From an uncultured Flavihumibacter sp. (GTDB lineage Bacteria > Bacteroidota > Bacteroidia > Chitinophagales > Chitinophagaceae), in assembly GCA_946482545.1 (NCBI GenBank), contig CAMLRX010000050.1, positions 1-32,755 on the forward strand: DNA of 32,755 nt, given 5' to 3'. Shown piece after piece: positions 8,814 to 19,764 of the stretch. The number at the start of each line of letters is the position of its first letter. Within the stretch, counting starts at the first letter, position 1. Under the pieces are notes generated by a model, which saw only the letters and a program-made list of their open reading frames with translations, ran no database searches and had not been told where the DNA came from. The translations under genes were made by a program, and so were the position numbers.

Positions 8814-8887
8814 CCGGTGGAGGGAAGAGCGGTTGAGGAGCGGGATGCGGGGAGGATGTTTCTCGCAACGGTGCCTGCTTCCTGCTG

Positions 8888-8920
8888 CCTGCTTCGTTCC
8901 TCGCAGCCTCGCAGACGCAA
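8888..8920. repeat. 33 bp dispersed repeat, copy B
   Basis: Same word as copy A at 7222-7254 with a single mismatch (GTTCC for GTACC). It is embedded in a segment bounded by two CGCAACGG words (8864-8871 and 8915-8922). Confidence 0.7.
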
Positions 8921-8976
8921 CGGTGAAGGAGGGAATGTCTATAGGTTGAAGCGATGGAGGTTAACGGGTTAAACAG

Positions 8977-16731: not shown

Positions 16732-17832
16732 TTACTGCTTTTTGAATACGCCGGAACTGGCTGGTCCGGGTAATTCAGAGAGTTTCACTTCCGGTTTGTT
16801 CACTTCGCTCACACTGTGGATGTCCATCAGCAGCCTCGGTTCTTTGCCCATCACTTTCGGGATCGTTTCCTCCGGTTTTTTCATACCCACATAGTGGTTG
16901 GCGCTGATCACGGAGTGGCGGTCTATCTGGCGTGGTCCTTCGATGGTCCAGTCGGAAGTATGTTTTTTCTCGAAGCGGCATTCGTTGCAGATCCATCCTG
17001 GTTTTCCGTCGGCGGTATCTTCTACTTCACCCCACTGGTCTTTGCGGGCGGTTACGCGGAACACTTCGTCGCCACGGTACCAGAGGGTTGTTTGTCCGCA
17101 ACACTTCTCACAATCACGGTGCGCGTTTACCGGTTTCAGGAACCAAACGCGGTTCTTGAAACGGAAGGTTTTATCGGTCAGTGCGCCTACGGGGCAAACA
17201 TCAATCACGTTTCCGCTGAAATCGTTGGTGATGGCTTTGCCGAGCAGGGTAGATATTTCAGACTTTTCCCCTCTTTCCAGCACACCATGGATCCTGGCAT
17301 CGGTCAGTTGCTCCGCGGTGAATACGCAACGGTAGCAAAGGATGCAGCGGGTCATGTGCAATTGGATATTCGGGCCGATGTCTTCTTTTTCGAAGGTTCT
17401 TCTATCGAATTCGTAGCGGGTACTTTCTGCGCCGTGCTCATAGCTGAGGTCCTGGAGGTGACATTCACCAGCCTGGTCGCAGATGGGGCAATCCAGGGGG
17501 TGGTTGAGGAGCAGGAATTCCACCACGCCTTTGCGGGCATCGATCACGCGTTCGCTGGTGATGCTTTTCACGATCATGCCATCCATCACGGTGGTGCGGC
17601 AACTGGCTACCAGTTTGGGCATGGGGCGTGGGTCGGCAGTGGAGCCAGCGGCTACTTCCACCAGGCAGGTACGGCATTTCCCGCCGCTTCCCTTCAGTTT
17701 GCTGTAGTAGCACATGGCGGGCGGGGTAACATCGCCTCCGATCTGGCGCGCGGCCTGGAGGATCGTGGTTCCGGGGGGAACTTCGATGGTGATGTTGTCT
17801 ACCGTTACTTTAAATAGTTGTTGTTCACTCAT
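16732..17832 (-). CDS. nuoG: NADH-quinone oxidoreductase subunit G, short form
   Basis: 366 aa. The N-terminal domain has a [2Fe-2S] site (C41, C53, C56, C78; cluster N1b). The His-Cys site HPLDCPICDQAGEC (H111, C115, C118, C124; cluster N5) follows. The N4-type motif is CILCYRC plus CPVGAL (C163, C166, C169, C213). Residues 241-285 (CEKCCG and WICNEC) look like the opening of the molybdopterin-oxidoreductase domain, after which the protein stops. Canonical NuoG is 700-900 aa, so the large catalytic-like domain is absent; short NuoG forms are known in Bacteroidota. The electron path N1b-N5-N4 is retained. The start codon lies 10 bp from the inverted repeat of the inserted GxxExxY cassette. 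Confidence 0.96.
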   Translation of the reverse strand: MSEQQLFKVTVDNITIEVPPGTTILQAARQIGGDVTPPAMCYYSKLKGSGGKCRTCLVEVAAGSTADPRPMPKLVASCRTTVMDGMIVKSITSERVIDARKGVVEFLLLNHPLDCPICDQAGECHLQDLSYEHGAESTRYEFDRRTFEKEDIGPNIQLHMTRCILCYRCVFTAEQLTDARIHGVLERGEKSEISTLLGKAITNDFSGNVIDVCPVGALTDKTFRFKNRVWFLKPVNAHRDCEKCCGQTTLWYRGDEVFRVTARKDQWGEVEDTADGKPGWICNECRFEKKHTSDWTIEGPRQIDRHSVISANHYVGMKKPEETIPKVMGKEPRLLMDIHSVSEVNKPEVKLSELPGPASSGVFKKQ

Positions 17833-17842
17833 CCTCGTATGT

Positions 17843-17882
17843 TTTTTTCACGCAAAGACGCAAGGGAGCAGAGACGCAAGGA
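17843..17882 (+). repeat. Left terminal inverted repeat of the GxxExxY cassette
   Basis: 40 bp, outer end TTTTTTCACGCAAAG. It contains direct repeats AGACGCAAGG at 17856-17865 and 17872-17881. It is 10 bp from the nuoG start codon, so the nuoG leader is partly cassette-derived. Confidence 0.85.
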
Positions 17883-17930
17883 TGCGATAGCGTTACTGAT
17901 TGTTAATATTTTTCGATCTGCTGCTTTCAT

Positions 17931-18308
17931 TTAAAGCCCGTTTGCTATTCTGTGAAATCCATCTTTTAAAAGATCAACGTTAAAATTGATCAGTAATCCC
18001 AGTTTTATATCCGTCAACTTCAAATAGGTAATAATCTGTTTGAAGTGAATCTTTTCCAATTGTTCCACTGATTTAACTTCTACTATCACACATTCTTCTA
18101 TCACCAAATCTGCACGAAAACCACGCTTCATTTCCAACCCCTCATGCACAACTTTCACAATCTTCTGCCTTTCCACCTCCCAACCCCGTTTCGTCAATTC
18201 ATAACTGAGCAATTCTTCATATACACTCTCAAACAAACCCGGCCCGAATTTCCTATGCAAACCCAAAGAAGCCTCAAACACACCTCTTGCAATCTCATTC
18301 TCTATCAT
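17931..18308 (-). CDS. GxxExxY family protein (PD-(D/E)XK nuclease-like)
   Basis: 125 aa from ATG 18308 (MIENEIARGVFEASLGLH), the usual start of this family. A GTG at 18344, right at the inverted repeat, would add 12 residues. The family signature is G24-LFE27-SVY30. The catalytic-like pattern D67 (FRADLVIEE) and E77-V-K79 (VEVKS) fits a PD-(D/E)XK nuclease core. The C-terminus LGLLINFNVDLLKDGFHRI-x-NGL is characteristic. The biochemical role of the family is not established; paralogs are often numerous in one genome. The gene has the same orientation as nuo, so it is probably transcribed with the operon. Confidence 0.92.
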   Translation of the reverse strand: MIENEIARGVFEASLGLHRKFGPGLFESVYEELLSYELTKRGWEVERQKIVKVVHEGLEMKRGFRADLVIEECVIVEVKSVEQLEKIHFKQIITYLKLTDIKLGLLINFNVDLLKDGFHRIANGL

Positions 18309-18344
18309 CTCCAAGTATTTTACGCCTGCAAAATACTCAACCAC

Positions 18345-18384
18345 TCCTTGCGTCTCCGCTCCCTTGCGTCTTTGCGTGAAAAAA
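18345..18384 (-). repeat. Right terminal inverted repeat of the GxxExxY cassette
   Basis: 40 bp, complementary to 17843-17882 with one mismatch (CGGAG for CAGAG in the middle). It ends 24 bp from the nuoF stop codon. Confidence 0.85.
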
Positions 18385-18408
18385 CACCACCCTACCCCGT
18401 GAAATCAC

Positions 18409-19764
18409 CTACGCCTCCGCCGGCACATAAATAGGATCCGCATAATGCCTCAACCCATAATTCCCCTTCACCGCCTCATCCGGATGCAGTACATGCCACT
18501 CAAACTCATCCCTGAAATGCCTGATGGCAGCCGCTACGGGCCAGGCCGCAGCATCTCCCAGCGGGCAGATGGTATTGCCTTCGATCCTGCGCTGGATATC
18601 CCACAGCAGGTCGATATCACTCATTTTACCTTTTCCTTTCTCGATGTTCTTCAGGATCTTGTACATCCAGCCCGTACCTTCCCGGCAGGGAGAGCACTGA
18701 CCGCAACTCTCGTGGTTGTAGAAATGCGCCAGGGTCATGGTGTGTTTTACCACGCACTGGTCTTCATCCAGCACGATGAAACCGCCGGAACCCATCATGG
18801 AGCCGGTGGCGAAACCACCATCACTCAAACTTTCATAGTTCATGTAGCGGGTTTCTCCTTTTGCTGTTTTCAGCAACAGGTTAGCGGGCAGGATGGGCAC
18901 GGAAGAACCACCAGGAATACACGCTTTCAGCTTTTTGCCGTTGCGGATACCGCCGCAATATTCATCGGAATAAATAAATTCTTCTACTGAAATGGTCATG
19001 TCGATTTCGTACACACCACCTTTATTGATGTTGCCGCAGGCGGAGATCAGTTTGGTACCGGTGGAACGGCCCACACCAATTTTAGCATATTCCTCCGCTC
19101 CAATGTTCATGATAGGTACGATGGCGGCGAGTGTTTCCACATTGTTCACCACGGTGGGACAATCATACAATCCTTTTACGGCGGGGAATGGCGGCTTGAT
19201 GCGGGGGTTACCACGCTTGCCTTCGAGGGATTCGATCAACGCGGTTTCTTCTCCGCAGATGTAAGCGCCGGCACCACGTTGCACGTAGATTTCCAGATCG
19301 AAACCGGTACCTAAAATGTTCTTTCCGAGCCAGCCGTTCTGCTTCGCTTCGGCGATGGCCTGCTCCAGAATATCAGGAATCCAGGCATATTCGCCACGGA
19401 TATAAATGTAAGTGCTGTTGGAACCAAGTGCGTAGGAAGAAACGATGAGTCCTTCGATCAGCAGGTGGGGCAGGAACTCCATGAGGTAGCGGTCCTTGAA
19501 GGTACCGGGCTCACTTTCGTCGGCATTGCACACCAGGTAGCGGGGCACACCTTCGGGTTTGGCCAGGAAGCTCCATTTCATACCGGTGGGGAACCCGGCG
19601 CCGCCCCTTCCGCGGAGACCGCTTTTCTTCACTTCTTCCACAATATCGTTGGGCGCCATTTTCAGCGCCTTCTCCACAGAACGGTACCCACCATTTTTAC
19701 GGTATACATCGTAATAACGGATGCCTTCAATATGTGCGTTCTCTAGTAACAGTTTAACTCCCAT
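18409..19764 (-). CDS. nuoF: NADH-quinone oxidoreductase subunit F
   Basis: 451 aa, NADH-oxidising subunit of the peripheral arm. The glycine-rich NADH loop GRGGAGFPTGMKW (52-64) and the FMN-binding region (CNADESEPGTFKDR, GAGAYICGEETALIESLEG) are clear. The [4Fe-4S] N3 motif CGQCSPCREG with a downstream CPLGD cysteine completes it. The length is normal. The stop codon is 24 bp from the right inverted repeat of the inserted cassette. Confidence 0.98.
   Translation of the reverse strand: MGVKLLLENAHIEGIRYYDVYRKNGGYRSVEKALKMAPNDIVEEVKKSGLRGRGGAGFPTGMKWSFLAKPEGVPRYLVCNADESEPGTFKDRYLMEFLPHLLIEGLIVSSYALGSNSTYIYIRGEYAWIPDILEQAIAEAKQNGWLGKNILGTGFDLEIYVQRGAGAYICGEETALIESLEGKRGNPRIKPPFPAVKGLYDCPTVVNNVETLAAIVPIMNIGAEEYAKIGVGRSTGTKLISACGNINKGGVYEIDMTISVEEFIYSDEYCGGIRNGKKLKACIPGGSSVPILPANLLLKTAKGETRYMNYESLSDGGFATGSMMGSGGFIVLDEDQCVVKHTMTLAHFYNHESCGQCSPCREGTGWMYKILKNIEKGKGKMSDIDLLWDIQRRIEGNTICPLGDAAAWPVAAAIRHFRDEFEWHVLHPDEAVKGNYGLRHYADPIYVPAEA

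Follow-up and report, generated by a model that had tools for sequence, protein, structure and literature searches.

A GxxExxY nuclease gene between inverted arms at a nuoF-nuoG junction: a probable gene-bearing member of a hairpin-repeat population

Why does a GxxExxY gene lie between two nearly identical inverted repeats at a nuoF-nuoG junction? The question is raised by contig CAMLRX010000050.1 of an uncultured Flavihumibacter sp., of which a stretch of 32,755 nucleotides was analysed as a whole (hereafter the window). A preliminary description had reported two 40 bp inverted repeats with one mismatch between nuoF and nuoG, enclosing only a GxxExxY gene and ending 10 bp from the nuoG ATG, and this layout was confirmed: the two arms are 40 nt long, inverted, complementary at 39 of 40 positions and separated by a spacer of 462 nt, the only gene between them is one minus-strand GxxExxY (PDDEXK_3) open reading frame (ORF), and 10 bp separate the nuoG ATG from the left arm's outer end (the 17843 side). 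Since the ORF list contains no further gene between the arms, there is no transposase there, as had also been stated. We read the locus, with a probability of about 0.6, as one gene-bearing element within a larger population of repeats that form hairpins, which resembles the REPIN/RAYT system but has an unrelated nuclease of the PD-(D/E)XK type. The features concerned are as follows.

17843..17882, no strand: inverted-repeat arm on the nuoG side, with four ~8-nt units CGCAAAGA CGCAAGGGA GCAGAGA CGCAAGGA and an outer T run
18345..18384, no strand: inverted-repeat arm on the nuoF side, from the repeat comparison
17931..18344, minus strand: GxxExxY / PDDEXK_3 ORF as listed from a GTG, 137 aa (ORF list and profile matches)
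18309..18344, minus strand: leader from the arm to the ATG, with the first bases GTGGTTGAG
16732..17832, minus strand: downstream flank, which we take from its protein to be nuoG (ORF list; orthologous junctions)
18409..19764, minus strand: upstream flank, which we take from its protein to be nuoF (ORF list; orthologous junctions)

The arm family is dispersed genome-wide; its copies are intergenic, often form gene-less inverted pairs and often surround terminator-like hairpins. In the nearest genome (G001) we count at least 50 places, grouped in 40 clusters and counting both nuoFG arms (a lower bound, as 40 of 97 candidates were scored), against a single GxxExxY gene; in ten of the clusters two places fall together, as they do at the nuoFG element. 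A 12-base core of the arm occurs 135 times, against 2 for the reversed pattern. Among 17 distinct loci read, copies face each other in 8, and leader-like bases stand beside the gene-side arm in 6 of the 17 dispersed copies (GTGGTTGAG, twice as GCGGTTGAG and once as GTGGTTGAA). This distribution is not that of a homing endonuclease, for which a single homologous target is expected, whereas there are 50 places in G001 and genes both at nuoFG and elsewhere. The preliminary description had held that a repeat found mainly without GxxExxY genes would speak against its proposal of a minimal mobile cassette, and that half of what it named is what G001 presents; the finding agrees better with a population of hairpins that is served in trans than with a non-feature. 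Separately, window positions 8859-8940 hold a lone TTTCTCGCAACG-type array that has no partner seen within the window and resembles the second arm type of the G001 loci.

Similar repeats also commonly bound GxxExxY genes at other loci, as the preliminary description had led one to look for. Arms were scored with match +1 and mismatch -2 in flanks of 300 bp, with a threshold of at least 14; the window arms, which consist of four imperfect ~8-nt units, score 37. The survey covered 78 of 80 named loci, two being dropped for short flanks; these 80 are the best of 172 relatives by likeness to the window protein, so that nuoFG orthologues make up more than their share of the set and are in part each other's relatives. 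Arms reaching the threshold were found at 40 of the 78 GxxExxY loci, compared with 6 of 466 other ORFs (control models made mechanically) and none of 320 random intervals from the same loci. A further set of 30 loci contained ten members of the 80, recognised by their arms, leaving 20 further loci from ten genomes, with arms of at least 14 in 8 and of at least 12 in 14; of 60 control intervals around the 30 loci, two reached 12 and none scored higher. Going by the titles of their records, the 20 extend outside Bacteroidota, to Planctomycetota, Ignavibacteria and Marinimicrobia. On plasmids, arms were present at three of seven loci (Sphingomonas fabD-fabG, Bernardetia and Bacteroides finegoldii), the other four scoring 11 or less. 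The arm types differ (GCAAAG, CACAGAG, TGATT), with a period of ~8 nt in most, as judged by eye. The association of arms with GxxExxY genes is thus a strong one. Four of the five top-scoring control ORFs (in L088 and L083) carry AATTTTC-type arrays.

Three further arrangements were seen in the course of this survey. The three of these four control ORFs that were read, at L088:427-1026, L088:8515-9084 and L083:452-970, are bounded by inverted AATTTTCAAATTTTCAAATT-type arrays, a different hairpin family at other nuo-operon junctions, and we take them from their sequence to be nuoC- and nuoJ-like. On the Fusobacteria plasmid locus L281, the GxxExxY gene lies between AGATTTAATCCGTGTACC repeats that by eye seem direct, not inverted. 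A small control ORF with strong arms and a AAGGAAGTCAAGTCTT palindrome on both sides (L095:1870-2553) appeared RAYT-like by its HVHFL motif, which is typical of REP-associated transposases; Pfam and PDB did not confirm this, and it was not used.

The arms are specific to the gene copy and to the genome. Chitinophaga has a second orthologous GxxExxY site, whose arms differ from those of the nuoFG gene; in G107 they carry TTGTCTGACTCAGGATTAAACTGATTACGCTGATT on both sides, and the arm region gives 51 match rows in this genome (both strands and its own locus counted). Eleven G107 units picked from the best rows are inverted-pair palindromes of ~190-380 bp with unrelated flanks, most of them with alike ends, and units of G097 and of G088 (which has lost the second-site gene and keeps a remnant) have other arm variants. 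Comparing 18 units taken from the best rows (one of 19 was dropped for a missing anchor), we counted 1.56 arm mismatches of 44 within units and 5.02 between units, a difference reached in 0 of 20,000 permutations. The G107 units alone gave 2.0 against 3.0 mismatches (14 of 20,000 permutations), and for the four G097 units alone the difference was not significant. The own-arm scores of 37 nuoFG elements add up to 610, and permutations gave 487 at most. We compared one orthologous 3'-end site by eye across 20 Chitinophaga species: arms of the second-site family occur in three gene-bearing species (G107, G091, G097), GATTT-type arms in G060, G099 and G061, and other arms, short hairpins or nothing clear in the remainder; from these arm types the arms at this site appear to change with the host's presumed hairpin-keeping gene (G144 and G141 excepted, see below). 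At the orthologous second-site terminator, L388, L373, L376 and L378 show very different large palindromes, of TTATTTG and AAAGCAAAAAGC types, and hairpin families seem to gather at this site as at a hot spot. At L241, L243, L245 and L246, all at the second GxxExxY site, the downstream arm seems by eye to lie within the start of the next gene and to code for part of a signal peptide.

In counts without tree correction, genomes that have the gene as a rule hold more of the repeats, and those in which it has decayed hold fewer. The pattern GCAAAGNNGCAAAG was counted in 79 Chitinophaga genomes, short patterns of this kind missing other arm types. Median numbers of matches were 3 for the 58 genomes that lack a GxxExxY gene, 53 for the 21 that have one and 156 for the 13 whose gene is at nuoFG (raw Mann-Whitney p 1.4e-6). 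Across 36 genera of the family, at least nine matches to TTTCWCGCAAMG were found in 9 of 22 with the gene and in 1 of 14 without (p 0.03; Mann-Whitney U test p 0.008, not tree-corrected). G108, G126 and G127, which have no gene and 21-50 matches, keep recognisable gene remnants at nuoFG. In 200-kb stretches starting from nuoFG we counted 11 arrays in G060, 10 in G061 and 4 in G099 (nuoFG arms included), and none in G087, which among the three compared is the most similar to G060; at four G060 array sites G087 has a short hairpin or, at one of them, a hairpin with GATTT-type arms.

The preliminary description had regarded the near-identity of the arms as a sign of a recent or maintained event. 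A recent insertion between nuoF and nuoG of an ordinary, still mobile terminal inverted repeat (TIR) transposon would accord with arms that are alike at 39 of 40 positions, and with the fact that some genes, L107/L120 and L098/L101 among them, group with the nuoFG clade yet sit elsewhere (on a poorly resolved tree). However, the GxxExxY gene lies directly between nuoF and nuoG in the same orientation at 36 of the 80 named loci, two further loci having one nuo gene adjoining and a contig end on the other side, and the junction is shared by 9 of 30 relatives' loci (G001 included) and by 13 of 79 Chitinophaga genomes. G001 has the same insertion in a region 97% identical over 1501 bp, and its arms are identical to those of the window down to the same single mismatch, which means that this arm state predates the split of the two. 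Moreover, GxxExxY distances follow NuoFG distances over 36 rows including the window (Mantel r 0.44, p 1e-4), and no second gene lies between the arms. A recent insertion or an active TIR transposon is therefore largely refuted at nuoF-nuoG by the shared junction, the remnants and the NuoFG-matched distances, and we regard it as very improbable.

Instead, the sequence comparisons indicate that the gene has long been at nuoF-nuoG, has for the most part been inherited vertically and has been lost more than once. In the protein tree, which has few columns and in which 10 of 74 inner branches are starred, nuoFG genes need 9 place changes, against 25.7 with shuffled labels. The window groups there with L060 and L061, apart from the other nuoFG genes and with weak support, so that one or a few re-entries at nuoF-nuoG are possible; similarly, the nuoFG-clade genes found at other places suggest that gene-bearing units may move on long time scales. 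Of the gene-less junctions, several keep a decayed gene end and one arm, and many other species have just short spacers; in G092 the nuoFG gene has its arms in the opposite orientation. Copy numbers are low: G001 has one gene, and among 79 Chitinophaga genomes 21 have a single full gene each, with one fragment besides, whereas a Niabella genome gives up to 11 GxxExxY match rows, fragments counted. Of the mobile cassette proposed earlier, the recurring unit of gene and arms is supported, and active jumping is not. The co-direction of nuoF, the GxxExxY gene and nuoG, all on the minus strand in the ORF list of the window, was considered as a special trait and dismissed, being not enriched outside nuoFG (26/33 against 244/318 control triples).

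The protein belongs firmly to its family: the window ORF matches the TIGR04256 profile with 131 bits (cut-off 35) and PF13366 with 126 bits (cut-off 22). PDDEXK_3 is its sole Pfam match at E up to 0.001, so that it is not a Y1 (HUH) tyrosine transposase, and the best matches of its predicted fold are PD-(D/E)XK nucleases. The listed ORF starts from a GTG at 18344, and aligned homologues start at an inner ATG (M-I-E-N-E-I); the true start is likely this ATG at 18308, residue 13 of the listed ORF, which would give 125 aa and lie 36 bp from the right arm. In the numbering from the GTG, G36, E39, Y42, D79, E89 and K91 are invariant across 45 aligned homologues, which bears out the full PD-(D/E)XK-like pattern described earlier as E27, D67, E77 and K79, the same residues as E39, D79, E89 and K91. 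A role in anti-phage defence was rejected, PADLOC having given merely a weak match (E 9e-4).

From these data we infer that the nuclease makes or keeps the hairpins. It would recognise its own arms when these fold into a hairpin or cruciform and may cut there or at other hairpins, after which repair could copy an arm-bearing hairpin to new sites and keep both arms alike. The gene itself would seldom move, and the hairpin population would depend on it.

An alternative at the RNA level needs no part of the nuclease in the spread of the repeats: the arms would be retained because, in the operon mRNA, they form a long stem by which the inserted gene is set apart. In keeping with it, the window element with 10 flanking bases per side folds at -176 kcal/mol (z -7.3 against shuffles), which is very stable, the arms remain complementary while diverging between species, dispersed copies surround terminator-like hairpins, and the same layout is described for intervening sequences (IVS), elements cut by RNase III (PMC4990558). 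A search of positions 17700-18500 against Rfam matched no family. Such a stem leaves unexplained why gene-less inverted pairs of the gene's own arm family exist (8 of 17 G001 loci; 11 G107 units) and why the repeat is less frequent in genomes that have lost the gene, and we consider this explanation unlikely.

Several results weigh against a hairpin population that depends on the gene. In the arm survey 38 of 78 loci score below 14 and 24 below 12. The link between gene and repeat number is not significant after correction on the nuoF-nuoG tree, where few independent pairs remain: at most 6 for the nuoFG gene (4.1 agreeing against 0.4), with a best median p of 0.125 at a threshold of 50 matches, the best of three thresholds, and 10 pairs for any GxxExxY gene (median p 0.25-0.5). 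G004 is a clear counter-example, with 64 matches and no gene by profile; G127 has 50 matches and no gene, and in G088, also without a gene, the second family gives 34 match rows of lower likeness. Conversely, five genomes have a gene and at most five matches to the GCAAAG pattern: G107, G141 and G091, with the second-site gene, G074, whose gene is without clear arms, and G092, with the reversed arms at nuoFG. Among the 37 nuoFG elements, no more than 10 have their own arm as the strictly best match, and G144 and G141 have the second-site gene with a plain hairpin at the orthologous 3'-end site. At the 79 Chitinophaga nuoFG junctions, where the earlier description had looked to an empty site, neither a clean one nor a target-site duplication was found, and none was found either at the four G060 hairpin sites, at the second gene locus (24 genomes with one representative locus each, of which G141, G081 and G069 aligned on one side only) or at one G107 unit across 20 genomes; what was seen instead were remnants, short spacers or other hairpins.

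These exceptions lead to another view, in which some other enzyme, or template switching during replication, moves the repeats and GxxExxY genes are passengers caught between hairpins. The many copies without a gene in G004, G127 and G088 agree with it, as do other 8-nt arm families in G087 without a TIGR02436 gene (see below), and mirrored arms are an expected product of template switching, a mutational mechanism that leaves such arms. Against this stand the arms themselves: each gene copy has its own, and they are much more frequent around GxxExxY and four-helix-bundle genes than around other ORFs or intervals. We hold the passenger view to be improbable, somewhat more so than the RNA stem.

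Genes for four-helix-bundle proteins (TIGR02436 / 23S_rRNA_IVP) share the layout of GxxExxY genes, with other arms. We found 20 TIGR02436 genes, in 6 of 12 genomes searched, and the two tested are Pfam 23S_rRNA_IVP. Arms of at least 14 flank 15 of the 20 and arms of at least 12 flank 18, compared with 11 or less in 58 control intervals (350-bp flanks). Two more dispersed families in Chitinophaga, AATTACGA and GATTTACG, are unlike the arms of the GxxExxY genes seen, and our guess is that TIGR02436 genes are their partners. One such gene (L269) has AATTACGA arms, and L263 and L264 have GATTT-type arms; against the partnership, G087 contains both repeat types and no TIGR02436 match. Inverted arrays of both types are frequent in 200-kb stretches of G087 (L220-L229) and G099 (L210-L219). 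The rRNA intervening sequences described in a report on Coxiella likewise contain an ORF for a four-helix-bundle protein; their ends are inverted, they have 7-nt repeats, and RNase III excises them (PMC4990558).

Taking both groups together, we tentatively suggest, falling a little short of believing it ourselves, that GxxExxY founded a class of 'hairpin keepers', PD-(D/E)XK nucleases of an origin independent of RAYT that would copy and correct genome-wide palindromes at transcription terminators, and that the four-helix-bundle (IVS/S23) proteins may be a parallel class for which the rRNA IVS would be one special landing place. If this is true, two frequent annotations without an assigned function gain a role as keepers of palindromic repeats, a large part of the intergenic repeat DNA of 8-nt period that we saw in Bacteroidota is explained, a second class of enzymes is added that could maintain REP-like elements, and an origin is offered for rRNA intervening sequences. 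No paper on a link between GxxExxY genes and repeats was found by a full-text search of PMC papers, judged chiefly by title and abstract opening, most subscription papers and preprints lying outside its reach.

How does the element compare with known systems? From Cas4/RecB-like and Hjc nucleases the GxxExxY protein differs in that no PDB chain matched it by sequence at E below 0.05, with nothing credible among the chains, and in that no CRISPR genes were noticed beside it in the ORF list of the window. With miniature inverted-repeat transposable elements and other internally deleted transposons it shares short gene-less copies that have the ends of the gene-bearing copy, leader-like bases being kept in 6 of 17 G001 copies; unlike these, it has no transposase, and no target-site duplication was seen. 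The 23S rRNA IVS (S23p, PF05635, TIGR02436) likewise has a small ORF between inverted repeats (PMC4990558), whereas the GxxExxY element lies between nuoF and nuoG, not in rRNA, has a PDDEXK_3 ORF and matches nothing in Rfam. The closest likeness is to REPIN/RAYT, of which the element is not a member by the defining enzyme, PDDEXK_3 not being a Y1 HUH enzyme, and from which its arms of ~8-nt periodic units, about 30-70 bp long, differ in not being REP hairpins. In that system the transposase gene is single-copy and passed on vertically, and it keeps scattered inverted doublets, of which genomes with the gene have more (PMC8049555, PMC3116915). As there, a few-copy, vertically inherited gene of nuclease type stands beside its own repeat, each gene has its own repeat family, and dispersed non-autonomous inverted doublets in intergenic DNA share the repeat that flanks the gene (PMC3116915, PMC8049555).
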